Positions 17,131 through 60,680 of a stretch of 64,000 bases of DNA are shown piece by piece (position 1 is the first letter of the stretch; every line of letters begins with the position of its first letter). Where the stretch lies: positions 17,501-81,500 of the forward strand of contig CACYBB010000009.1 in the NCBI GenBank assembly GCA_902772585.1, written 5' to 3'. A program made the translations under genes and the position numbers. Source of the DNA: an uncultured Bacteroidales bacterium (GTDB lineage: Bacteria > Bacteroidota > Bacteroidia > Bacteroidales > Bacteroidaceae). The notes below the pieces were generated by a model that saw nothing but the letters and a program-made list of their open reading frames with translations, had not been told where the DNA came from and made no database searches.

Positions 17131-17742
17131 TTCTTGTTTCGTTGCACCAGTCTCACCGTCAGTCGGCGTAACTTTATAGGCATTGTAAGCATTGTTGACA
17201 GCCTTCAGGAAGGCACGCGAAGTAATCGTCGAGGCGGTGATGGCATCTACCTGTCCACCGTCTTTCGAAACAGTCAATGGTTCAGCGGGAGACTTACCGA
17301 TGATGTCACCCTTCTGTCCCTTCTGGAACCACTGGTCAGCCTTGGCACCCAGTCCTGGTGTCTCAGCATGCTCCAGTAATGTGTAGCCAAGGATGTTGCC
17401 TTCGGTATCGAAACCAACGAGCACCTTCAGATCGCCACCAAAGCCCATCGTCGAACTCTGGACAGCAGCACCAAGATTCTTGCCCTGAGCGTCCTTCACA
17501 TTATATATAATAAAGGTTTGTTCCTTGCCATCGACGTTCTGTTTCACCTCAACGGGGGCTGCAACGACTAAATCGTTGCACACCATGACGGTCTTGATAC
17601 CGTCTGCCAAGGCTTTCTCTTTCTGTTCCTGGATAGGACCTTCTGTGAGATGATTTACAAAGGCGAGGATGCCACCCATGATGACCGCTACTAATGTCAG
17701 TACCAGCACCATATTTAAAAGTGATGATTCAAGCTTCTTCAT
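17128..17742 (-). CDS. rnfG: Rnf complex subunit G (FMN-binding)
   Basis: 204 residues: one N-terminal membrane helix (LLNMVLVLTLVAVIMGGIL, in part) and a periplasmic FMN domain. The conserved EHAETPGLGAK is at about 124-134. The flavinylation motif reads DAITASTITS with the FMN-accepting Thr at 172. Its start overlaps the rnfD stop by four bases. RnfG passes electrons within the complex. Confidence 0.93.
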   Translation of the reverse strand: MKKLESSLLNMVLVLTLVAVIMGGILAFVNHLTEGPIQEQKEKALADGIKTVMVCNDLVVAAPVEVKQNVDGKEQTFIIYNVKDAQGKNLGAAVQSSTMGFGGDLKVLVGFDTEGNILGYTLLEHAETPGLGAKADQWFQKGQKGDIIGKSPAEPLTVSKDGGQVDAITASTITSRAFLKAVNNAYNAYKVTPTDGETGATKQE

Positions 17743-18731
17743 TTTGCAACCTCCCCGAAACGTTTTGGTTTGACATAAGTGTTGATGAGCGGTGTGAACG
17801 CATTCATAATCAGGATAGCGAACGACATACCCTCGGGATATGCGCCCCAGTTACGGATGACTACCGTCAGGAAACCAATGCAGACACCATAGATAATCTG
17901 TCCTTTGGCGGTCATTGGTGACGTCACATAATCAGTAGCCATGAAGATAGCACCCAGCATCAGACCACCCGAGAAGATAACACTGAATGGGTCTGCATAA
18001 GCAGGGCTGGCCAGATGGCAAAGACCACTGAACACAAATACCGTAGCGATGATGCTGACAGGAATGTGCCACGTGATAATCTTCTTCCAGAGCATGTAAG
18101 CCAGACCTAACAATAGAGCCAGCGCACAAATCTCACCCATTGCGCCAGCACCATCAGGATGGTTACCGAGGAAAAGGTCAATCGATGATGGCAGCTTGTC
18201 CAAAATACTGGCATCACCATGCTTGATAGCATCCTGCATAATGGTCAGCGGTGTGGCACCTGTCTCTGCATCCAGATAAGCCCAATGTTGTCCGACCTTT
18301 GGCCACGTTGTCATCTGGGCAGGGAAGGCTACCAACAAGGCACAACGGCCTACCAATGCGGGGTTAAAGAGATTATTGCCCAGACCGCCGAACGTCATCT
18401 TAGCCACACCGATGGCAAACAGGGCACCAATGATGATGATCCAGATGGGGAGGTTTGAGGGCAGATTCATACCGAGCAGCAGACCTGTGAGGGCAGCAGA
18501 GCCGTCCATAATGGTATTGCGCTCGTTTTTCAGCATAAACTTATTGATGGCCCACTCGAAGAAAACACAGGCCACAACGCTCGTAGCACAGACAATGGCC
18601 GAACCAAGACCAAAGTAGTAGAACGACACGAGCAGCGCAGGCACGAGGGCGATGATGACCCCGTACATGTTCTTCTCAACGGTGTCTGTTCCGTGTGCGT
18701 GAGGCGAAAGTGATACAATTAATTTTCCCAT
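17739..18731 (-). CDS. rnfD: Rnf complex subunit D
   Basis: 330-residue membrane protein of the RnfD/NqrB family. It has several helices, the covalent FMN motif ETGATPLT with Thr near 160, and FGGLGNNLFNPALVGR. It lies between rnfC (36-base gap filled with octamer repeats) and rnfG (4-base overlap). Confidence 0.94.
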   Translation of the reverse strand: MGKLIVSLSPHAHGTDTVEKNMYGVIIALVPALLVSFYYFGLGSAIVCATSVVACVFFEWAINKFMLKNERNTIMDGSAALTGLLLGMNLPSNLPIWIIIIGALFAIGVAKMTFGGLGNNLFNPALVGRCALLVAFPAQMTTWPKVGQHWAYLDAETGATPLTIMQDAIKHGDASILDKLPSSIDLFLGNHPDGAGAMGEICALALLLGLAYMLWKKIITWHIPVSIIATVFVFSGLCHLASPAYADPFSVIFSGGLMLGAIFMATDYVTSPMTAKGQIIYGVCIGFLTVVIRNWGAYPEGMSFAILIMNAFTPLINTYVKPKRFGEVAK

Positions 18732-18770: not shown

Positions 18771-20135
18771 TTTTTTAGCCGCACGAGCGCGGATGATTCC
18801 CATGACGGTAGCCTTGGCCTGACGGATGTTGTCAAGCAGTGGACGGTGGGCGGGACAAGTAAACTGGCACGAGCCACACTCGATACAGCTGACAACCTCT
18901 TCCTTCTCGGCACGCTCCCAGTTCTTGACAGCAGCAAGCTTAGCCAACAAGTAGGGCTCCAAGCCCATCGGACAAGCGCTGACACACTTGGCACAGCGGA
19001 TGCAGGGATTGGGCTCCTTGCGATAAGCTTCCTCGTCAGAAATGATGGTCACAGAGTTGGTACCTTTGCAGATGGGTACCTCGACGCTAGTCAGCGCCTT
19101 ACCCATCATCGGACCGCCAGCCAACAACTTGTTGTCACCCTCGGGCATACCACCACAAGCCTCAATCAGGTCCTTCATCGGTGTACCCATACGAACGAGG
19201 AAGTTGCCTGGATGAGCCAATTTCTTGCCCGTTACGGTGGTATAGCGCTCGAACAAAGGCTTGCGCTTCATGACAGCCTCGTAAACGGCAAAGGCCGTAC
19301 CTACGTTCTGTACAATGGCACCCACGTTGACAGGAATAGCGGGAGGCGCAGGCACCTGACGATTGATGACAGCATCAACGAGTTGCTTCTCACCACCTTG
19401 CGGATAGCGCTGCTTCAGGGGCACTACCTCTACGCTGTATTCTGAGGAGCCAAACACCTCAGCACACTTTTTCGTCAGCAGTTCGATGGCGGGCATCTTG
19501 TTGGTCTCAATACCAATGTAGCCCTTGGTGACCTTAGCACCCTTCATCAGCAGTTCCAAACCAACGAGAATTTCGTCGGCATGTTCCATCATCAGACGGA
19601 AGTCGGCAGTGATATAAGGCTCACACTCAACGGCGTTGATAATCACGCACTCAGCCTTGGCCGTAGGTGGCGGACAGAGTTTGATGAAGGTGGGGAAACA
19701 GGCACCACCCATACCAACGACACCAGCGGTTTTGATACGCTCAACGATCTCTTCGGGAGTCAGTTCAGGATGGTCCTTTACCAGTTCCAGTTTGTCAGAG
19801 CGGTCAATGCTCTCTTCCCATTCGTCGCCCTCTACATTGATTATAATAACGGGCTTGCGATAACCGGTAGCATCAATGGCGGTATCAATCTTGAAAACGG
19901 TACCGCTAACCGATGAATAAATAGGAGCCGACACAAAGCCACCAGCCTCAGCAATCATGGTTCCCACTTTCACCTTGTCACCCTTAGCGACAACGGGTTT
20001 AGCAGGTGCACCGATGTGCTGACCAAGTGGGAAAATAGCCTGCTTAGGCAGTGCAGCCACCTTGGTTTCAACATCGTGGGTCAGCTTATTCTCTTCGGGG
20101 TGTACACCACCGATACTAAATGTCTTTATCTTCAT
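18768..20135 (-). CDS. rnfC: Rnf complex subunit C
   Basis: 455 residues. The N-terminal RnfC domain is followed by the NADH/FMN-binding SLBB-type region (VGMGGACFPTFIK) and a C-terminal domain with two 4Fe-4S motifs: CIRCAKCVSACPMG and CIECGSCQFTCP. RnfC is the peripheral NADH-handling subunit. Overlaps rnfB by four bases. Confidence 0.95.
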   Translation of the reverse strand: MKIKTFSIGGVHPEENKLTHDVETKVAALPKQAIFPLGQHIGAPAKPVVAKGDKVKVGTMIAEAGGFVSAPIYSSVSGTVFKIDTAIDATGYRKPVIIINVEGDEWEESIDRSDKLELVKDHPELTPEEIVERIKTAGVVGMGGACFPTFIKLCPPPTAKAECVIINAVECEPYITADFRLMMEHADEILVGLELLMKGAKVTKGYIGIETNKMPAIELLTKKCAEVFGSSEYSVEVVPLKQRYPQGGEKQLVDAVINRQVPAPPAIPVNVGAIVQNVGTAFAVYEAVMKRKPLFERYTTVTGKKLAHPGNFLVRMGTPMKDLIEACGGMPEGDNKLLAGGPMMGKALTSVEVPICKGTNSVTIISDEEAYRKEPNPCIRCAKCVSACPMGLEPYLLAKLAAVKNWERAEKEEVVSCIECGSCQFTCPAHRPLLDNIRQAKATVMGIIRARAAKK

Positions 20136-21025
20136 GCTTCGGCCTCCTTTTCTTTAGTGGGTTTATCCTCAGCGACAGAATCGCTGGGCACAGTCTTAGG
20201 TGCTGGGAAATTCACGGCGTGGATAGAACCAGTAGGACAAACAGCCACACACTTACGGCACAGACGGCACTTGGTGTGGTCGATGTACGACACGTTATTC
20301 TCAACAGTGATAGCACCAAACGGGCACTCTTTCTCACACTTGCTACAACCGATACAAGCAGCCTTACAAGCCTTCATAGCCACAGGTCCCTTGTCCTTGT
20401 TGACACAAGAAACGAAGACTCTCCTACCCTTCGGACCCTTCTTACGGAGCTCAATGATGTTGCGCGGACAAGCCTTGACGCAAGCACCACAAGCCACACA
20501 CTTCTCTTCATCTACCTCGGGAAGTCCTGTTTCTGCGTTCATGTGGATGGCATCAAACTGACAAGCAGCCACACAGTCGCCACAACCCAGACAACCAAAA
20601 CCACAGGCCGTCTCGCCAGCACCACAAGCGTTCATCGCTGCACATGTGCGCAGACCACTGTACTCTGCAATCTTCGGACGCAGGGCACATGTTCCGTTAC
20701 AACGCACAACAGCCACTTTGGGTTCACCATTGGCAATGGCCATTCCCAACAGGTCAGCCACCTTACCCATCACTTCTTGTCCACCCACGGGACACATCAG
20801 TCCCTCAAGGCTACCCGCATCGGCACCCTTGACAAGGGCATCAGCCAAGCCGCCACATCCAGCGAAGCCACATCCACCGCAGTTGGCACCTGGCAGTTGC
20901 TCAGTGACCTGGGCTATGCGAGGGTCTTCGTAGACATAGAACTTCTTGGAGCAGACATACAGCACGAGGGCGGCAATCAGTCCGATGGCGCCCAGTACTA
21001 ATACTGCAATCAACATAAAATCCAT
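20132..21025 (-). CDS. rnfB: Rnf complex subunit B (ferredoxin)
   Basis: 297 residues. One N-terminal helix (MLIAVLVLGAIGLIAALVLY) is followed by the RnfB-type cluster motif GANCGGCGFAGCGG, then several ferredoxin CxxCxxCxxxCP motifs (GCGDCVAAC, CVACGACVKACP, CIGCSKCEKECP, CRLCRKCVAVCP). This is the long multi-cluster form usual in anaerobes; it accepts electrons from ferredoxin. The Ala/Pro/Glu-rich tail is low in complexity. Confidence 0.95.
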   Translation of the reverse strand: MDFMLIAVLVLGAIGLIAALVLYVCSKKFYVYEDPRIAQVTEQLPGANCGGCGFAGCGGLADALVKGADAGSLEGLMCPVGGQEVMGKVADLLGMAIANGEPKVAVVRCNGTCALRPKIAEYSGLRTCAAMNACGAGETACGFGCLGCGDCVAACQFDAIHMNAETGLPEVDEEKCVACGACVKACPRNIIELRKKGPKGRRVFVSCVNKDKGPVAMKACKAACIGCSKCEKECPFGAITVENNVSYIDHTKCRLCRKCVAVCPTGSIHAVNFPAPKTVPSDSVAEDKPTKEKEAEA

Positions 21026-21044
21026 AAATCTATAAATATTTGTT

Positions 21045-21467
21045 TTAGTTTGTTATTTGTTCAATCCGAAAGGCCAGTTGCTCGCGCATCCTATCGCGCA
21101 ACAGCCATAACATTATATAATAAGGTACAAGCGCTACCAATGCGCTCAGCGCAGCCCATCCCTCATGACCCGTCAGCAGCAATACCAGCACCAACACCAC
21201 CATCAACAGGATAAAAGGTACGCCAAAAGCCCACAGCAGCGCCTTGGCAGCCACCTGTCCAGAGGTCGATACGGTGACCTGCTGACCGACTTTATATGCT
21301 GCGACGGAATCGCAGAACACATCAATCATCTTCTCTTTCGACTCGGCGGCATTGCAGTAGCTGGCAACCTTACAGGCTGCACAAGCAGATGTCTGGACGA
21401 TACGAACATGTATGCAACCGTCCTCAACGCTGTCAACTACCCCCGAATGAGTGATTCTTTGATTCAT
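21045..21467 (-). CDS. rseC: RseC-like protein (SoxR-reducing system)
   Basis: 140 residues with an N-terminal soluble part carrying a four-Cys pattern (SACAACKVASYCNAAES) and two membrane helices (about 76-97 and 101-118). Homologous to RseC, which joins Rnf-like complexes in the SoxR-reducing system of E. coli; in Bacteroidales it is the regular first gene of the rnf unit. It is first after the promoter here, 19 bases before rnfB. Confidence 0.88.
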   Translation of the reverse strand: MNQRITHSGVVDSVEDGCIHVRIVQTSACAACKVASYCNAAESKEKMIDVFCDSVAAYKVGQQVTVSTSGQVAAKALLWAFGVPFILLMVVLVLVLLLTGHEGWAALSALVALVPYYIMLWLLRDRMREQLAFRIEQITN

Positions 21468-21485
21468 TAGTATTGCAATCTCGAG

Positions 21486-21503
21486 TTTGCAATTGCAAAG
21501 ATA
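21486..21503 (-). promoter_or_regulatory. rnf promoter -7 box with overlapping palindrome
   Basis: The minus-strand -7 box TATCTTTG is at 21496-21503. The perfect palindrome TTTGCAATTGCAAA (21486-21499) starts inside the box and covers the expected transcript start, a good place for a repressor. Confidence 0.6.
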
Positions 21504-21564
21504 CGAATAAATAACGAATAATGAATTACGATTTTCGAAAAATATGAAAAAAAAGTCGTAATCG

Positions 21565-21596
21565 TTTGCAATTATCCACTAATTTGTGTACTTTTG
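21565..21596 (+). promoter_or_regulatory. promoter for the 21621 gene
   Basis: TTTG at 21565-21568, 20-base spacer, TACTTTTG at 21589-21596. Confidence 0.75.
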
Positions 21597-52900: not shown

Positions 52901-53991
52901 AGAAAGTCGCTTTGATTACCGGTATCACGGGTCAGGACGGTTCCTATCTGGCCGAGTTCTTGATTGAAAAAGGCTATGAGGTGCACGGACTGCTGCGCCG
53001 TAGCTCGTCATTCAACACCGGACGTATAGAACACCTCTATCTCGACGAGTGGGTACGCGACATGAAGAAAGCCCGTCTGGTCAACCTGCATTGGGCTGAT
53101 ATGACCGACTCCTCGTCACTCATCCGCGTCATTGGCGAGGTGAAACCTACAGAGATTTATAATCTGGCTGCTCAGAGCCACGTAAAGGTATCGTTCGACG
53201 TGCCCGAATATACAGCAGATGTAGATGCTGATGGCGTATTGCGCCTGTTGGAGGCTGTACGTATCTGCGGACTCGACAAGACATGTCGTATCTATCAGGC
53301 ATCGACCTCTGAGCTCTATGGTAAGGTACAAGAGGTGCCACAAAGCGAGACCACTCCTTTCTATCCCCGTTCACCCTATGCCGTTGCCAAGCTCTATGGT
53401 TTCTGGATTATGAAGAACTATCGTGAGTCGTATGGCATGTTCTGCTGTAATGGTATTTTGTTCAACCACGAGAGTGAACGTCGTGGTGAGAACTTCGTAA
53501 CACGTAAGATTACGTTGGCTGCCGCCCGCATTGCCCAAGGTTATCAGGACAAGCTCTACTTAGGTAACCTGAACTCCCTGCGCGACTGGGGTTATGCCAA
53601 GGACTATATCGAGTGTATGTGGCTCATCCTGCAGCAGCCCGAGCCTGATGATTTCGTCATTGCCACTGGCGAATACCATACTGTTCGCGAGTTTACCACG
53701 CTTGCCTTCAAGGAGGTAGGCATCGAACTGGAATGGCGTGGCGATGGAGTTGACGAGAAAGGTTACGATAAAGCGACAGGCAAGGCATTGGTCGAGGTTG
53801 ATCCCAAATACTTCCGTCCTGCTGAAGTGGACCAGTTGTTGGGTAATCCTGCTAAGGCAAAGGCCAAATTGGGTTGGAACCCGCAGAAGACTTCGTTCCC
53901 TGAGCTTGTCAAAATCATGGTGAAGCACGATATGAAGTTCGTGAAGAAGCTGTTTTTAAAGGCGCAAATGGACAAAGAAGATGAAGCTTGA
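52897..53991 (+). CDS. gmd: GDP-mannose 4,6-dehydratase
   Basis: 364 residues; short-chain dehydrogenase with the NADP site [14 protein letters not shown], catalytic STSELYGKV and YxxxK in YAVAKLYG, and the family segment [18 protein letters not shown]. Converts GDP-mannose to GDP-4-keto-6-deoxymannose. Overlaps fcl by 11 bases. Confidence 0.96.
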
Positions 53992-54922
53992 TTCAAAGAT
54001 ATATGTCGCAGGCCATCGTGGCATGGTAGGTAGCGCCATTGTGCGTGAACTACATCGCCAGGGCTATACTAATATTATTACGCGCACGCATAAGGAACTG
54101 GACCTGACCCGTCAGGAGGCTGTCGAGGCCTTCTTTGCTCAGGAAAAGCCCGAATACGTATTCCTCGCTGCAGCGAAGGTTGGTGGCATCATTGCCAACC
54201 AGAGTGCGCTGGCCGACTTCATGTACGACAACATGATACTGGAGATGAATGTCATCCATGCTGCTTGGAAGAACGGTTGTAAGAAACTGGAGTTCCTGGG
54301 CAGCAGCTGCATCTATCCACGAATGGCCCCACAGCCTATGCCTGAGAGTTGTCTGCTGACCAGCGAACTGGAGAAGACCAACGAGGCTTATGCATTGGCA
54401 AAAATCAGTGGACTGAAATACTGCGAGTTCCTGAATCGCCAGTATGGCACAGACTATATCTCCGTCATGCCTACCAACCTCTATGGTCCTAACGACAACT
54501 ACCATCCTGAGCACAGCCACGTGCTGCCAGCCCTCATCCGTCGTTTCCACGAAGCAAAGGAAGCTGGTCTGGAGAGTGTTACCTGCTGGGGCGATGGCTC
54601 ACCCTTGCGTGAGTTCCTGTATGTTGATGACCTCGCCAACCTCTGCGTGTTCCTGATGAACAACTACTCAGGCAACGAGACAGTGAATGCTGGCACAGGT
54701 AAAGAGCTGACCATCAAGGCATTGACAGAACTTGTCGCTAAAGTCGTTGGCTATCAGGGACGCATCGAATGGGACACCACACGTCCTAATGGCACCCCTC
54801 GCAAACTCCTCGACGTCAGCAAGGCTGCCAAGCTCGGCTGGACCTACAAGACCGAACTCGAAGACGGCATCCGACTGGCCTACGACGATTTCCTGAATAA
54901 CCCCATGCGAGCCGAACGTTAA
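53981..54922 (+). CDS. fcl: GDP-L-fucose synthase
   Basis: 313 residues; epimerase-reductase with NADP site [29 protein letters not shown] and catalytic [13 protein letters not shown]. It finishes GDP-L-fucose, the donor for fucosylated capsule, O-glycan or LPS. No fucosyltransferase and no phosphomannomutase gene is in the window. A conserved hairpin element follows the stop. Confidence 0.96.
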
Positions 54923-54924
54923 TT

Positions 54925-54949
54925 GTGGTCGACGGTTTTGCCGTCGACG
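54925..54949 (+). repeat. variable-arm hairpin element after fcl
   Basis: GTG, then arm GTCGACGG (54928-54935), loop TTTTG, arm CCGTCGAC (54941-54948). Shares the GTG flank, the CGG/CCG stem base and the loop with two elements inside recQ, but the four outer variable pairs differ. No T-run follows, so it is a poor terminator. Confidence 0.8.
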
Positions 54950-54965
54950 TTAACCCCAAATAACT

Positions 54966-55802
54966 ATGAAACCAATACGAACCCTTAACGACATGATTGT
55001 CTTCCTGCAAGAGCGGGGAGACCGCAAACGTGTGGCTGTGGTCTGTGCCAACGATGCCAGCACGCGCTATGCAGTAGAGAAAGGCAAGGAGATGGGATTC
55101 ATCGAACCCATCTACGTGGACGGCGACGACAAGGACGAATGTGCTCGTCGTGCTGTAGCAATGTGTAAGAATGGTGAGGCCGACATCCTGATGAAGGGAC
55201 TCATCAATACCGATGTCCTGTTGCGTGCCATTCTCGACAAGGAGAACGGTATCCTCCGCAAGGGACATGTGCTGACACATGTCGCTATGGCCGAGATTCC
55301 CAAGTACGAGAAACTGTTGTTCTTCACCGATGCTGCCGTTATCCCTGTCCCCACCCCTACACAGCGTCGCCAGCAGATTCGTTACATGAACTACGTCTGT
55401 CATGCCCTGGGCATTGACGAGCCACGCATCTCGCTCATCCACTGTGCTGAGAAAGTCAGCGCCAAGGCTTTCCCCTATACCGTTGACTACCTCGAAATCA
55501 TTGCCGAGGCCCAGCGTGGACAGTTTGGGCGATGCATCATCGATGGTCCCCTTGACCTGAAGACATCCCTCGACAGCGTGTCGTTGCACGAGAAAGGTAT
55601 CAAAAGTGTCATCGACGGACAAGCCGATGCCCTCATCTTCCCCGATATTGTTGCTGGTAACGTGTTCTACAAGACGATAACACTCTTCGGCTACGCCAAG
55701 ACCGCAGGTGTCCTGCAGGGCACCCAATGCTGTTGCGTGCTTCCCTCGCGTGCCGATAGTCCTGATTCCAAATACTACTCTTTAGCCCTCGCTGCAATAT
55801 GA
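54966..55802 (+). CDS. ptb: phosphate butyryltransferase
   Basis: 278 residues of the phosphate acetyl/butyryltransferase family (MKGLINTDVLLRAIL, DAAVIPVPTPTQRR, FPDIVAGNVFYKTITLF in parts). With the kinase next door it would turn acyl-CoA into acyl-phosphate and then acid plus ATP. Branched or straight C4-C5 acyl groups are the likely substrates. Start overlaps nothing; the stop overlaps buk by four bases. Confidence 0.9.
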   Translation: MKPIRTLNDMIVFLQERGDRKRVAVVCANDASTRYAVEKGKEMGFIEPIYVDGDDKDECARRAVAMCKNGEADILMKGLINTDVLLRAILDKENGILRKGHVLTHVAMAEIPKYEKLLFFTDAAVIPVPTPTQRRQQIRYMNYVCHALGIDEPRISLIHCAEKVSAKAFPYTVDYLEIIAEAQRGQFGRCIIDGPLDLKTSLDSVSLHEKGIKSVIDGQADALIFPDIVAGNVFYKTITLFGYAKTAGVLQGTQCCCVLPSRADSPDSKYYSLALAAI

Positions 55803-56863
55803 AAATCCTTGTCATCAATCCTGGTTCTACGAGTACAAAGATGGCCGTCTATGAAGACGAGCAACCCATTCTTCTGCGTAATATCACCCATACCGCTGAA
55901 GAGTTGGCGCCTTTCGACGCCATCACTGAACAGCAGAATTTCCGCAAGCAACTAGTGCTCGACGAACTGGCTGCTGCCGATATTCCATTGGAGTTTGATG
56001 CCGTCATCGGACGTGGTGGACTGGTTAAGCCCATTGCTGGTGGTGTATATGAAATTAACCAACAAATGATTGATGATACCCTGCATGGTTGTGTCATGCA
56101 CAACCACGCTTGCAATCTCGGTTGCCTTATCGCCCACGAAATCGCAAAAGAGATAGGATGTCGCTCCTTCATTGCCGACCCGGGTGTCGTCGACGAGTTG
56201 TCACCCTTGGCGCGCATCAGCGGTTCGCCCCTCATGCCTCGTATCGCCATCTGGCACGCCCTCAACCAGCGCGCCATCGCCCGTCGCTATGCTCGTGGCA
56301 TTGGCAAGGAGTATGAAGACCTGAACCTCATCATCTGTCACCTGGGAGGCGGCATCTCTGTGGCAGCCCACGAACATGGTCGTGCCATCGATGCCAACAA
56401 CGCCCTGGATGGCGAAGGTCCCTTCTCGCCCGAGCGTGCAGGTTCGTTGCCTGCTGCTGACCTCATCCGTCTCTGTTTCAGTGGCAAATATTCTGAGAAG
56501 CAACTGCTGAAACGCATTGCTGGCAAGGCAGGACTCAATGCCCATCTGGGCACCAACAACATGCGCGAGATTCAAGAGCGCATCAAGAACGGTGACGAGC
56601 ACGCCCGACTCATCGTCGATGCAATGCTCTACCACGTTGCCAAGAATATTGCTGCCGAGGCCGCTGTGCTCTGTGGCCATATTGACGCCATTCTGCTCAC
56701 GGGCGGCATGGCCCATTCTGAATATATCGTCAACGAATTGCGTCGTCGCATTGGCTTCCTCGCACCCGTCTATACCTTCCCTGGCGAAGACGAGATGCAA
56801 GCCCTCGCTCTCAACGCCCTTGCCGTGCTTCAAGGTAAACGTGACGTCAAAATTTACAGTTAA
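55799..56863 (+). CDS. buk: butyrate kinase
   Basis: 354 residues of the acetate/butyrate kinase family: VINPGSTSTKMAVYED, VIGRGGLVKPIAGGVYEI and ICHLGGGISVAAHEHGRAID, in parts. Makes acid and ATP from acyl-phosphate. Coupled to ptb. In Bacteroidales such pairs may serve branched-chain fatty acid exchange; butyrate as an end product is not proven by these two genes. Confidence 0.93.
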   Translation: MKILVINPGSTSTKMAVYEDEQPILLRNITHTAEELAPFDAITEQQNFRKQLVLDELAAADIPLEFDAVIGRGGLVKPIAGGVYEINQQMIDDTLHGCVMHNHACNLGCLIAHEIAKEIGCRSFIADPGVVDELSPLARISGSPLMPRIAIWHALNQRAIARRYARGIGKEYEDLNLIICHLGGGISVAAHEHGRAIDANNALDGEGPFSPERAGSLPAADLIRLCFSGKYSEKQLLKRIAGKAGLNAHLGTNNMREIQERIKNGDEHARLIVDAMLYHVAKNIAAEAAVLCGHIDAILLTGGMAHSEYIVNELRRRIGFLAPVYTFPGEDEMQALALNALAVLQGKRDVKIYS

Positions 56864-56920
56864 ATCATCAAATTCTGTTAAAAAATCAGTCAGCATTTCC
56901 ATTTATTTGTTTTTTCTTCG

Positions 56921-56928
56921 TAACTTTG
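56921..56928 (+). promoter_or_regulatory. -7 box for recJ-recQ
   Basis: TAACTTTG, 68 bases before the recJ ATG. The leader can form an imperfect hairpin at about 56933-56963 (GTATAC and GCATAC areas). Confidence 0.6.
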
Positions 56929-56995
56929 AAGGCGTATTGTATACCTATGGCATACGATACCCCTGTTTAAGACAAGAAAATAAATAAAAACATAA

Positions 56996-58720
56996 ATGCA
57001 ATTTAAATGGAATTACGAACCACTGACACCAGAAAGACAGCAAGCAGCTAAGGAGCTGGCCGAGAAGATCGGGATGAGTCCCGTGATGGCCGGCCTCCTA
57101 ATACAGCGTGGCATCAAGACGGAGAGTGCAGCAAAGCGCTTCTTCCGTCCTATGCTGAACGAGCTGATTGACCCGTTCCTGATGAACGACATGGACGTGG
57201 CAGTGGACAGACTGAACGACGCCATGGGGCGCAAAGAGCGTATCATGGTTTATGGCGACTACGATGTCGACGGATGTACGGCGGTAGCGCTTGTCTACAA
57301 GTTCCTGCAGCAGTTCTATTCCAACATTGACTACTATATCCCCAACCGCGAGGAAGAGGGTTATGGCGTCAGCAAAAAGGGAATAGACTATGCGGCAGAG
57401 ACAGGGGTAAAACTTATTATCGTCCTCGACTGTGGCATCAAGGCCGTCGAGGAGATAGCGTATGCCAAGGAGTTGGGCGTAGATTTCATCATCTGCGACC
57501 ACCACGTGCCTGACGAAGTGATGCCACCCGCTGTGGCCATTCTCAATCCCAAGCGCGACGACTCCACCTATCCTTTCAAGCACCTCTGCGGATGTGGTGT
57601 GGGCTTCAAGTTCATGCAGGCCTTTGCCAAGAACAACGGTATCCCGTTCTCACGCCTCATTCCCCTACTCGACTTCTGTGCCGTCAGCATTGCTGCCGAC
57701 CTGGTACCTGTAGAGGGTGAGAACCGCACGTTGGCTTTCCACGGACTGAAGCAGTTGAACCAGGCTCCCTCGACAGGCCTGAAGGCGATTATCGAGATTT
57801 GCGGACTTACCAATCGCGAACTCACCATGAGCGACATCGTCTTTAAGATTGGTCCGCGCATCAACGCCTCTGGTCGTATGATGAATGGTCGCGAGGCTGT
57901 GGACCTGCTCGTAGAGCGTGATCTGCAGCGCAGTCTGACGATGGCTACGCGCATCAACGAATACAACGAACAGCGCAAGGATGTCGACAAGCAGATGACT
58001 GTCGAGGCCAACGAGATTGTGGAACGCCTGGAGAGTCAGCAGCACCAACAGTCCATCGTGCTCTATGACGAGGGCTGGAAGAAAGGTGTGGTAGGCATTG
58101 TGGCATCCCGACTCACCGAGCTTTATTTCCGTCCCACGGTGGTACTCACCGTCATCGATGGTATGGCCTCTGGTTCTGCACGTTCCGTGGCAGGCTTCGA
58201 CGTCTATGATGCCGTTAAGTCGTGTCGCGACCTGCTGGAGAACTTCGGTGGTCACACCTATGCCGTAGGTCTCACCATGCGTCAGGAGAATATCCCTGAG
58301 TTCCGTCGTCGTTTCCAGGAGTATGTCAGCCACCACATCCTGCCCGAGCAGACCCAACAGACGCTCGACATCGATATGGAACTCGACTTCCAGCAAATCA
58401 GCAAGCGCCTGCTCAATGAGTTGAAGCGTCTGGCACCTCACGGACCAGGCAATGCCAAACCGCTCTTCATCACGCGCAACGTCTATGACTTTGGCACGTC
58501 GAAGGTGGTGGGTCGCCATCAGGAGCATATCAAGTTGGAACTCGTCGATTCCAAGTCGGCAGTGGTCATGAACGGCATTGCCTTCGGACAGTCGGCATCA
58601 GCACGCTATATCAAGTCAAAGCGTTCCTTCGACATCGTCTATACCATCGAGGAGAACACCTACAAGCGTGGCGAGGTACAACTGCAGATAGAGGGCATCC
58701 GTCCGTCGGAGGATGAGTAA
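56996..58720 (+). CDS. recJ: single-strand exonuclease RecJ
   Basis: 574 residues. DHH motifs VYGDYDVDGCTA (motif I), LDCGI (II) and CDHHVPD (III), then the DHHA1 part with GRINASGRM-like PRINASGRMMNG and GSARSVAGFDVYDAV. It degrades single-stranded DNA 5' to 3' in recombination and repair. The recQ start overlaps its stop by eight bases; the RecJ-RecQ pair resects broken or stalled DNA together. Confidence 0.95.
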   Translation: MQFKWNYEPLTPERQQAAKELAEKIGMSPVMAGLLIQRGIKTESAAKRFFRPMLNELIDPFLMNDMDVAVDRLNDAMGRKERIMVYGDYDVDGCTAVALVYKFLQQFYSNIDYYIPNREEEGYGVSKKGIDYAAETGVKLIIVLDCGIKAVEEIAYAKELGVDFIICDHHVPDEVMPPAVAILNPKRDDSTYPFKHLCGCGVGFKFMQAFAKNNGIPFSRLIPLLDFCAVSIAADLVPVEGENRTLAFHGLKQLNQAPSTGLKAIIEICGLTNRELTMSDIVFKIGPRINASGRMMNGREAVDLLVERDLQRSLTMATRINEYNEQRKDVDKQMTVEANEIVERLESQQHQQSIVLYDEGWKKGVVGIVASRLTELYFRPTVVLTVIDGMASGSARSVAGFDVYDAVKSCRDLLENFGGHTYAVGLTMRQENIPEFRRRFQEYVSHHILPEQTQQTLDIDMELDFQQISKRLLNELKRLAPHGPGNAKPLFITRNVYDFGTSKVVGRHQEHIKLELVDSKSAVVMNGIAFGQSASARYIKSKRSFDIVYTIEENTYKRGEVQLQIEGIRPSEDE

Positions 58721-60680
58721 CTACAAAGAGATACTGAAGCACTATTGGGGCTACGACGACTTTCGTGGCATCCAACAGCAGATTATCGAGTCAATAGGAC
58801 TGGGACGCGACACGCTGGGGCTCATGCCCACAGGAGGCGGCAAGTCGCTGACCTTCCAAGTGCCTGCTATGGCACTCGATGGGGTGTGCATTGTCGTCAC
58901 CCCACTCATCGCCCTGATGAAAGACCAAGTCATGCACCTCCGCCAGAAGGGCATCCTCGCAGCAGCCGTCTATAGCGGTATGTCGCACGACGACATCCTG
59001 CGCGTGCTGGAGAACTGCATCCTGGGGCGCACCAAGTTCCTCTATGTATCGCCCGAACGACTCTCCAGCGACCTCTTCGTCACCAAGTTGCGCCACATGC
59101 ACGTGTCGTTCATCACCGTTGACGAGGCACACTGCATCTCCCAGTGGGGCTATGATTTTCGCCCCTCCTACCTGGAGATTGCCAACATCCGCGCCATCCT
59201 GCCCGACATTCCCGTTCTGGCCTTGACAGCTACCGCCACGCCCCAAGTCGTAGAGGATATCTGCGCTAAGCTTTCATCAAACAGCCAACACCCAACACCT
59301 AACAGCCAACACCCAGAATCCGGCAAAACCGGATTCCACAGTGTGGAACACGGTTTTGCCGTGTTCCGCATGTCCTTCGAACGCAAGAATCTCACCTACT
59401 TCGTCAAGGACTGTCCTGACAAGATGCAGGAACTCATCCACACCTTTCAGCACACCCAGGGCTCGGCCATTGTCTATGTGCGCAGTCGTCGTCGCACCAA
59501 GGAGATTGCCCAGGCACTCTGTCTGGCTGGTCTCAGCGCCACCTTCTATCATGCCGGACTGGACCACGAGGTGAAAGACCAGCGCCAGCGCGACTGGCAG
59601 CAAGACGGTGTGCGCATCATCGTCTGCACCAACGCCTTTGGCATGGGCATCGACAAGCCCGACGTGCGTTTGGTCATGCACTACGACTGTCCCGACTCCA
59701 TCGAGGCCTACTTCCAGGAGGCAGGTCGTGCTGGTCGTGACGGACAGCCTGCTCAGGCCATCCTGCTTTATAATAATGGTGATAATGCCAAACTCGCCAA
59801 GCGCATCGACGACACCTTCCCACCGAAGGACGAGATTCGTCAGGTCTATGAGCACCTGGCCTACTTCTTCCAGATAGCCACGGGCGATGGTTTCGGCATC
59901 ACTCGCGAGTTCAACATCGACGTCTTCTGTCAGCGTTTCCATCATTTCCCTGTACGCGTCCATTCCGCCCTGCAGATTCTGCAGCGTGCAGGCTATATAG
60001 AATACGATGCTGCCCCCGACTTGCAGACGCGTGTGCGCTTCCTCTTGGAGCGCCACGAACTCTATCGGCTCAACGACCTCTCCGACCATGAGGACCGCCT
60101 CATCGTCACCCTCCTGCGCAACTATGGTGGACTCTTTGCCGACTTCGGTTACATCGACGAGGCACTCATCAGTCAGCAGTGTGGTTTGCGCCCTGCCGAC
60201 CTCCACGAAGTGCTGAAGTCGCTGGCCCACAAACACATCATCCAGTATATCCCACGCTCTCAGGTGCCCACCATCCGCTATATGCAGCGTCGCGAAGACC
60301 CTGAGCACGTCCAACTCTCTGCCGACGTCTATGAACGACGCCTGGAGCAGTACCGCCAGCGCATCCACGCCATGCTGAACTACATGCAGGACAACGCCCA
60401 TTGTCGTTCGCGCCTGTTGCTGGAATACTTTGGTGAAAAAGACACCCACGACTGTGGCCACTGCGATGTCTGTCTCACCAATCAGAGTCAGACTGCTGCC
60501 CATCAGCAGTCACTCGATGCCGCTCAGTCCATCCTCCAGTTGCTCAGCGATGGCAAGCGCCATCATCTCAGCGAACTTCATCGGCTTCCCTTCCCTACCG
60601 AAGCCCTCGATACCGCTCTTCACAGCCTGCTTAGCGAAGAGCGCATCCTTCAGAACGACGGATTCATCGAAAGTCGCTGA
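58713..60680 (+). CDS. recQ: RecQ helicase with an in-frame repeat insertion
   Basis: 655 residues. Helicase motifs: PTGGGKSLTFQVPA (I), VDEAHCISQWGYDFRP (II plus the RecQ loop), LALTATAT (III), AFGMGIDKPDVR (V) and QEAGRAGRDG (VI). The zinc-binding part ends in CGHCDVC; no clear HRDC domain. Residues about 189-217, between the two RecA-like lobes, do not look like RecQ: they are coded by heptamers AACAGCC/AACACCC and two hairpin elements. The frame is kept, so the protein is probably made with a loop of low-complexity sequence. Converges on the SpoIIE-type phosphatase gene. Confidence 0.94.
   Translation: MSNYKEILKHYWGYDDFRGIQQQIIESIGLGRDTLGLMPTGGGKSLTFQVPAMALDGVCIVVTPLIALMKDQVMHLRQKGILAAAVYSGMSHDDILRVLENCILGRTKFLYVSPERLSSDLFVTKLRHMHVSFITVDEAHCISQWGYDFRPSYLEIANIRAILPDIPVLALTATATPQVVEDICAKLSSNSQHPTPNSQHPESGKTGFHSVEHGFAVFRMSFERKNLTYFVKDCPDKMQELIHTFQHTQGSAIVYVRSRRRTKEIAQALCLAGLSATFYHAGLDHEVKDQRQRDWQQDGVRIIVCTNAFGMGIDKPDVRLVMHYDCPDSIEAYFQEAGRAGRDGQPAQAILLYNNGDNAKLAKRIDDTFPPKDEIRQVYEHLAYFFQIATGDGFGITREFNIDVFCQRFHHFPVRVHSALQILQRAGYIEYDAAPDLQTRVRFLLERHELYRLNDLSDHEDRLIVTLLRNYGGLFADFGYIDEALISQQCGLRPADLHEVLKSLAHKHIIQYIPRSQVPTIRYMQRREDPEHVQLSADVYERRLEQYRQRIHAMLNYMQDNAHCRSRLLLEYFGEKDTHDCGHCDVCLTNQSQTAAHQQSLDAAQSILQLLSDGKRHHLSELHRLPFPTEALDTALHSLLSEERILQNDGFIESR
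59280..59314 (+). repeat. in-frame heptamer repeat inside recQ
   Basis: Five units AACAGCC, AACACCC, AACACCT, AACAGCC, AACACCC, coding for the SNSQHPTPNSQHP stretch. Confidence 0.93.
59315..59368. repeat. two head-to-head hairpin elements inside recQ
   Basis: First: arms GAATCCGG (59316-59323) and CCGGATTC (59329-59336), loop CAAAA, i.e. TTTTG on the other strand. Second: GGAACACGG (59345-59353) and CCGTGTTCC (59359-59367), loop TTTTG. Their GTG ends face each other across AGT (CAC-AGT-GTG). Confidence 0.93.

Follow-up and report, generated by a model that had tools for sequence, protein, structure and literature searches.

Hairpins with a near-constant foot and free, paired arms in rumen Prevotella genomes and their probable link to a REP-associated tyrosine transposase

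This study concerns a family of short DNA hairpins found in a 64,000-nucleotide stretch (hereafter the window) of the genome of an uncultured Bacteroidales bacterium (assembly GCA_902772585.1, contig CACYBB010000009.1, positions 17,501 to 81,500 of the forward strand). Each hairpin consists of a GTG foot, a stem of eight base pairs (bp) and a five-nucleotide (nt) loop. These elements form a large, dispersed family of 24-letter palindromes in rumen Prevotella genomes, often located within genes. They are physically and phylogenetically tied to one subfamily of transposases with HUH and tyrosine (Tyr) motifs. The hairpins are probably relatives of the repetitive extragenic palindromes (REPs), belonging to a REP-associated tyrosine transposase (RAYT) system.

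Hairpins of the window and extent of the family

A sequence-only reading of the window had described three elements with GTG, a perfect 8-bp stem and the loop TTTTG, one between genes and two in a coding sequence. All three were found as described, and their placement between or within open reading frames (ORFs) agrees; only the start of the third, given as 59342, was one base early. The four free bases of the arm (N4) are TCGA at 54925, AATC at 59316 and AACA at 59343. The supposed constancy of the loop and of the outermost stem G had to be given up, as the loop is TTY followed by two free bases and the outermost pair varies in the family. Because the loop is TTYNN and not invariably TTTTG, four further hairpins had been overlooked. 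With the relaxed loop, the window contains seven hairpins, of which four are perfect, three have seven of eight pairs and none has exactly six:

54925..54948, + strand: hairpin 1, GTG GTCGACGG TTTTG CCGTCGAC, directly 3' of the stop of ORF 53981-54922 (presumably fcl-like) and 5' of ORF 54966-55802
59316..59339, - strand: hairpin 2, GTG GAATCCGG TTTTG CCGGATTC, antisense in the recQ-like ORF; the + strand reads ESGKTGFH
59343..59366, + strand: hairpin 3, GTG GAACACGG TTTTG CCGTGTTC, sense, with GTG in frame; the right arm runs into the native recQ codons GTG TTC of V-F-R-M-S-F
17560..17583, - strand: perfect hairpin, GTG TGCAACGA TTTAG TCGTTGCA, an in-frame sense copy in the - strand open frame 17131-17850
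19442..19465, - strand: hairpin with 7/8 pairs, GTG CTGAGGTG TTTGG CTCCTCAG, sense, out of frame (frame 18771-20153)
20168..20191, - strand: hairpin with 7/8 pairs, GTG CCCAGCGA TTCTG TCGCTGAG, an in-frame sense copy close to the C-terminal end of the - strand frame 20135-21052, judged ferredoxin-like by eye; a + strand frame of about the same length is open as well
21297..21320, - strand: hairpin with 7/8 pairs, GTG TTCTGCGA TTCCG TCGCAGCA, in frame in the - strand frame 21048-21578, the longer of two open frames
58713..60680, + strand: ORF presumably encoding a recQ-like helicase, with hairpins 2 and 3 in its variable linker
59280..59314, + strand: five heptamers (AACAGCC, AACACCC or AACACCT) immediately 5' of hairpin 2

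These hairpins are real and exceed chance expectation. None of 300 dinucleotide-preserving shuffles of the window produced a perfect hairpin, compared with 4 observed; hairpins with at least 7/8 pairs averaged 0.05 per shuffle (maximum 1), compared with 7 observed.

The sequence-only reading had allowed that a pattern limited to its three copies, or accompanied by equal numbers of non-complementary arms, would be due to chance. The literal pattern does occur only three times in the host genome (reversed-pattern control 0). Across the genus, however, the pattern with free arms, GTGGNNNNCGGTTTTGCCGNNNNC, has 30 matches in 19 of 299 genomes, with no match of the reversed control in any of the 299. 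Counted by eye, 23 of these matches are complementary over all four N4 pairs, with 11 distinct N4 sequences, and 7 are not, so the covariation of the arms proposed earlier holds. Without the three copies of the window, 20 of 27 are fully complementary, where chance would give 1/256 for each. The commonest arm is TCAG (11/30). A pattern combining this arm with a free loop was found in 16 of 24 chosen genomes, namely the 19 positive and 5 negative by the arms-free pattern, with a control of 0; none of the five negative genomes matched. In this pattern the loop and the closing pair covary.

The near-constant parts of the family are the foot GTG, the tip CGR/YCG and the loop start TTY, whereas the lower stem varies and still pairs. 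Five of the eight stem pairs vary widely inside one genome. The base after GTG is paired and differs as well: the commonest arm class gives GTGG, and other copies give GTGC or GTGT. In pooled loci, which were partly selected through palindrome searches and from which 15 loci titled outside Bacteroidales (one of them only "bacterium") were excluded, a GTG foot with the tip CGR-TTY-YCG accompanies five outer pairs in 66 non-master copies, four in 20 and fewer in 11. Of ten alternative feet, the same scan returned all five outer pairs with GCG (6), GTT (5), GTA (3) and ATG (1) and with no other. Pair counts from alignment A1 are not used as evidence, since its palindromes were preselected and the argument would be circular.

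The covariance model R1 gives 58 matches in the host genome at E<=0.2. At E<=0.02, at least one match occurs in 66 of 150 genus genomes and at least 693 occur altogether; these counts are floors, because at most 50 candidates were scored per genome, and about three genomes are expected to show a chance match. The foot-and-tip pattern exceeds its reversed control in the host (35 vs 1) and in G081 (72 vs 3), and is level with it in hairpin-poor genomes (0 vs 2 in G024, 3 vs 4 in G016).

A scan of named genomes returned at least 118 stretches. Among them, 103 are titled Prevotella, Prevotellaceae, Bacteroidaceae or Bacteroidales, and many were sampled from rumen or other fore-stomach sources; Prevotella records with these hairpins include HUN156, MN60 and tc2-28. 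The other 15 include Actinomycetes, Sphingomonas, Pseudomonas and one titled "bacterium" only. In the first 80 stretches, Bacteroidales hits have a Watson-Crick closing pair in 70/73 cases and a TTY loop start in 63/73, compared with 2/9 and 0/9 for the remaining hits, which therefore look like chance. Genomes commonly contain short inverted repeats, and a few of the hairpins lie after stop codons, as would suit chance repeats or ordinary intrinsic terminators. This explanation is nevertheless extremely improbable: it is refuted by the shuffles, by the empty reversed-pattern controls and by the comparison with hits outside Bacteroidales.

Some simple repeats lie next to the hairpins. Stretches like the heptamer repeat at 59280-59314 recur in other genomes of the genus. 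The heptamer query matches G056 29 times, and among the matches listed all hit that stretch. In L066, L111, L114 and L161, hairpins come straight after GACAACR-type repeats.

Association with a transposase subfamily

The associated transposase suggested in the sequence-only reading was found. It is a REP-type HUH/Tyr gene of the host genome (C4:140370-141653 in G000, 428 amino acids, aa) that both contains hairpins and is flanked by them, with 9 of the 58 model matches at or near it. Directly upstream are four tandem units of about 40 bp, each with AGTG-CCCAGCGG-TTCAC-CCGCTGG. The variable linker that separates the HUH motif (PEHLH) from the Tyr motif (YIKGNPR) contains three hairpins. A single hairpin and several fragments made up of foot and left arm follow directly downstream of the gene, and the preceding gene has one hairpin inside.

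The subfamily of this protein was delimited by the analyst at a gap in the search results, with members at 46% identity or more and the next matches at 36%. It occurs in 13 of 150 genus genomes. All 13 contain model hairpins, compared with 53 of the 137 others (p 1.1e-5; medians 21 and 0). Strict GTG/TTY hairpins number 24 in 8 of the 13 subfamily loci (48.5 kb). Fifteen are inside the transposase gene, spread over 7 loci and not all in the HUH-Tyr linker, and the 9 outside are confined to three loci. No strict hairpin was found at 49 other Y1-type loci (171.6 kb; 47 distinct genes, since L190 = L260 and L191 = L259), which comprise 17 from other subfamilies, 20 from the A2 family and 12 from PF01797. 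The difference is significant against the 17 (p 2.2e-4) and against all 49 (p 3.8e-7). When looser feet are allowed, hairpins appear at 11/13 subfamily loci and at 4/17 loci of other subfamilies.

The HUH and Tyr motifs are invariant in 14/14 proteins of alignment A3, which excludes L330 and L333 (no frame passing the filter or, for L333, a Tyr motif missing by pattern). All 14 match the NCBIfam family NF047646 (REP_Tyr_transpos) at E<=0.01, the best at 4e-11, and three other Y1-type proteins score 28-63.8 bits. The transposase profile matches IS200-type transposase structures weakly (E 0.14). For the roughly 200 conserved residues after Tyr, which form the C-terminal half (L325-L335), no convincing match was found in Pfam or the Protein Data Bank (PDB).

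The A2 family (439-aa host protein) was also considered as the direct partner. It co-occurs with hairpins at the genome level: 41 genomes have the gene and at least three hairpins, 3 have the hairpins without the gene, 40 have the gene with fewer than three and 66 have neither (p 7e-11). It was dropped in favor of the C4 subfamily because no strict GTG hairpin occurs at 20/20 of its loci.

Other palindromes were observed at related genes. A2-family genes of G000:C8 (L190, L260) and G022:C50 (L191, L259) carry CAGCGGCG-TTCT-CGCCGCTG palindromes in the variable linker, where the repeated peptide varies from one genome to another. A further type, with TGTTG arms and a 3-nt loop, lies in or near the transposase genes of L265, L268, L271, L272, L273, L276 and L277. 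Possibly, each transposase subfamily has its own hairpin.

Genomic location and origin of the hairpins

The fetched loci contain 181 distinct perfect hairpins, a sample in which orthologous copies are counted separately, which was partly chosen by searches and which excludes the 15 loci titled outside Bacteroidales. Of these, 131 are clearly coding; another 18 are noncoding or fall in short frames, and the remaining 32 are ambiguous. The clearly coding copies comprise 109 in sense and 22 in antisense orientation, and GTG is read as a codon in 97 of the 109. In the window, five of the six copies inside genes point the same way as their gene, on either strand, so that lagging-strand insertion explains the bias poorly. 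Possible sources are exposure of the coding strand in transcription, a role in RNA or tolerance by the protein.

The second of these sources can be extended into a separate explanation, in which selection acts on a messenger RNA (mRNA) hairpin through stability, pausing or protein binding and the transposase is a passenger. A hairpin acting in mRNA would account for the sense orientation and the in-frame position, and the tracking of the gene strand in the window fits as well. However, antisense copies exist (hairpin 2 among them), the genes that carry the hairpins are housekeeping genes with no relation to one another, neither the window nor L314 has an Rfam match at gathering score, and copies cluster at one transposase subfamily. 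Protein tolerance may also bias the frame by itself. Selection on RNA as the main cause is thus quite unlikely.

The host genes identified by eye in the genome of the window are recQ, uvrA (two sites), clpB (two), a LolD-type ATPase, folK and a SufB-like gene. Solved structures could be matched to the LolD, ClpB and FolK proteins and to one UvrA site. Comparisons of this kind suggest that both insertion and change in place occur. On the side of insertion, extra residues relative to solved homologs are found where the hairpins lie: 8 and 7 residues in ClpB (against 4hse), 4 in UvrA and 3 in FolK. The recQ linker segment measures 35-36 aa in 19 of the 31 distinct segments compared; two relatives that carry hairpins have 46 aa there, and the window has 58. 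The recQ gene of G007 has GTG TTT at the codons of the right arm of hairpin 3, together with a matching left arm and no GTG foot.

At other sites the hairpins lie in native residues. In DPP4 (L129), the hairpin-coded VVYGSAVH aligns ungapped to dipeptidyl aminopeptidase IV (2z3w), and the host ortholog (L004) has equal length at the site, with an imperfect palindrome and no GTG foot. The hairpin-coded residues of the host LolD-type ATPase align gap-free to a solved homolog. Those of a dihydrolipoamide-dehydrogenase-like protein (L152) are ungapped against mercuric reductase, although the best match, 1ebd, shows small gaps at the hairpin. The transposase gene itself has two places with hairpins in native residues and no change in length. 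At the window site 19442, G182 has a different hairpin on the opposite strand, in an ungapped coding sequence of the same length. Arms may also differ at one site. Five orthologs share one ClpB site with TCCGCCGA, TCCGGCGA (two) or TCCAGCGG (two), four of them perfect and one with seven pairs, and a sixth ortholog has no hairpin; L249 and the host locus L006 likewise have different paired arms at the same site.

These native-residue hairpins and same-site arm differences favor an explanation in which palindromes are written or perfected in place: template switching during replication overwrites one arm with a copy of the other, and hairpins with a GTG foot and a TTY loop are favored by selection or by the transposase. 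Template switching has been described as a creator and maintainer of hairpins (PMC8794818). It would write neither the foot nor the loop by itself, and the insertions in ClpB, UvrA and FolK and the gaps of L152 against 1ebd speak against it. Furthermore, creation and decay are not always separable in comparisons among present-day sequences. As a general account, in-place writing is tenable but rather doubtful. The copying mechanism for palindromes suggested in the sequence-only reading is kept alive by the hairpins in native codons, although it is not demonstrated.

A combined route can be considered, in which native near-palindromic coding DNA would be converted in place to hairpins with a GTG foot and a TTY loop, the arms being taken from local sequence. 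This proposal is speculative and on balance unlikely. The same low probability is given to its proposed route, transposase-guided or template-switch copying, by which the system would not be limited to inserting ready-made palindromes. If true, a genome would gain sequence-free hairpin sites in conserved genes without insertion.

Further variants were observed beside these sites. Orthologs of the LolD-type site (L107, L086, L156) have different palindromes with 3-nt loops, such as GTGTCGAT-GGC-ATCGACAC and GTGTTGAT-GAC-ATCAACAC. Tandem half-elements (L103, L165, L086, L314:5155-5270) repeat the foot and left arm, with the right arm on the last unit only, beside full hairpins. Many isolated left halves look like background, and no mechanism is drawn from the half-elements.

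Proposed mechanism and relation to known systems

In the preferred reading, that of REP-like palindromes served by a RAYT-type enzyme, the C4-type transposase would bind the single-stranded hairpin through the GTG foot and through the tip with its loop (CGR-TTYNN-YCG). Pairing would be required along the whole stem, but almost any sequence would be accepted in its lower part, and the arms would be free to drift or to be rewritten pairwise. We infer that the enzyme binds, cleaves and spreads the hairpins, and likewise the cause of the arm complementarity. A precedent exists in two group-3 TnpA_REP enzymes, for which PMC8266576 reports that the foot and certain loop bases are essential in vitro, that changes of stem sequence have a mild effect and that stem mismatches are harmful. 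If the Prevotella enzyme reads its substrate in the same way, the result would be arms that pair perfectly but are free in sequence, next to a fixed foot and tip. This reading rule is carried over from enzymes of other bacteria and can only be presumed for Prevotella. The matching of the arms itself may come from compensatory change under selection, insertion of new variants, gene conversion or template switching.

Several points weigh against this reading. The host protein scores 21.9 bits against NF047646, far below the curated cut-off of 80. Five of the 13 subfamily loci have no strict hairpin. Some hairpin-rich genomes have no full subfamily member (G121 with 45 hairpins, G072 with 38, G129 and G101 with 28 each and G022 with 25), and G074, with 36 hairpins, has only a 56-residue fragment; gene loss or missed assembly may account for these genomes, whose estimated completeness is 73-93%. 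The p-values given above are optimistic because genomes of one genus are not independent. The hairpins are mostly coding (131/181), whereas REPs are mainly extragenic, and hairpins in native codons without insertion are not explained by simple transposition. Finally, the E. coli enzyme departs from the recognition rule assumed here, since it needs a bulge and is not loop-specific (PMC8266576).

REP elements usually form families of fixed sequence. The likeness to REP/RAYT systems (REPtrons) lies in a short, tagged and dispersed palindrome, a conserved 5' foot and a HUH/Tyr transposase gene flanked by palindromes. The closest relative appears to be TnpA_REP subclass 2.4. Like the Prevotella system, this subclass has REPs in frame in the transposase gene between HUH and Tyr and occurs in Bacteroidetes (PMC6006769). 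Its foot is GT[AG]G, compared with GTGG in the commonest arm class and GTGC or GTGT in other copies here. Its Tyr motif YIxNNP (PMC6006769) is seen in several Prevotella members (YIHNNPR, YIRNNPR). In contrast, the HUH motif is P[DE]H[LV]H here and NH[IFV]H in subclass 2.4 (PMC6006769), and the Prevotella transposase has about 200 further residues after Tyr. From these sequence likenesses, the Prevotella system likely works like a REPtron. It is placed as a REP/RAYT variant because it departs from the subclass 2.4 HUH motif and falls below the NF047646 cut-off.

Several individual features have published counterparts. GTAG REP families have alternative complementary stem residues within families and intragenic copies, including two uvrA sites (PMC3733652), so that intragenic REPs in repair genes, uvrA at two sites among them, are already on record. 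REPs inside genes and within the transposase gene itself are also published (PMC3733652, PMC6006769). Rickettsia palindromic elements (RPEs) are similar in being palindromes in frame within genes. RPE-4 and RPE-6 have been equated with CGTC repeats, and RPE-1 is described as longer than the present hairpins (PMC3733652). Nematomorph mitochondria also have coding palindromes, perfect inverted repeats with conserved protein encoded in their arms; these differ in being mitochondrial and in reaching 284 bp, and the abstract mentions no constant foot, loop or transposase (PMC6649704). REPs of Prevotella are not described among the literature matches listed, a coverage that mostly leaves out subscription papers. 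The earlier statement that no named family has this form thus stands for the Prevotella literature found, while the anatomy matches REP/RAYT systems.

Compared with known REPs, the Prevotella hairpins differ in their foot of GTG plus any base and in the wide variation of five of eight pairs within one genome. Most sampled copies are also coding, sense and in frame, and some lie in native codons. The unusual features are arms diversified within one genome, a location that in the sample is mostly coding, sense and in frame, and some hairpins in conserved codons without insertion. A near-constant foot and tip with a free stem, all within one genome, separate by natural variation the parts that a RAYT-type enzyme might recognize from those it might not. 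Arm swaps at the same site and hairpins in native codons provide natural data on how stems stay paired while both sides change.

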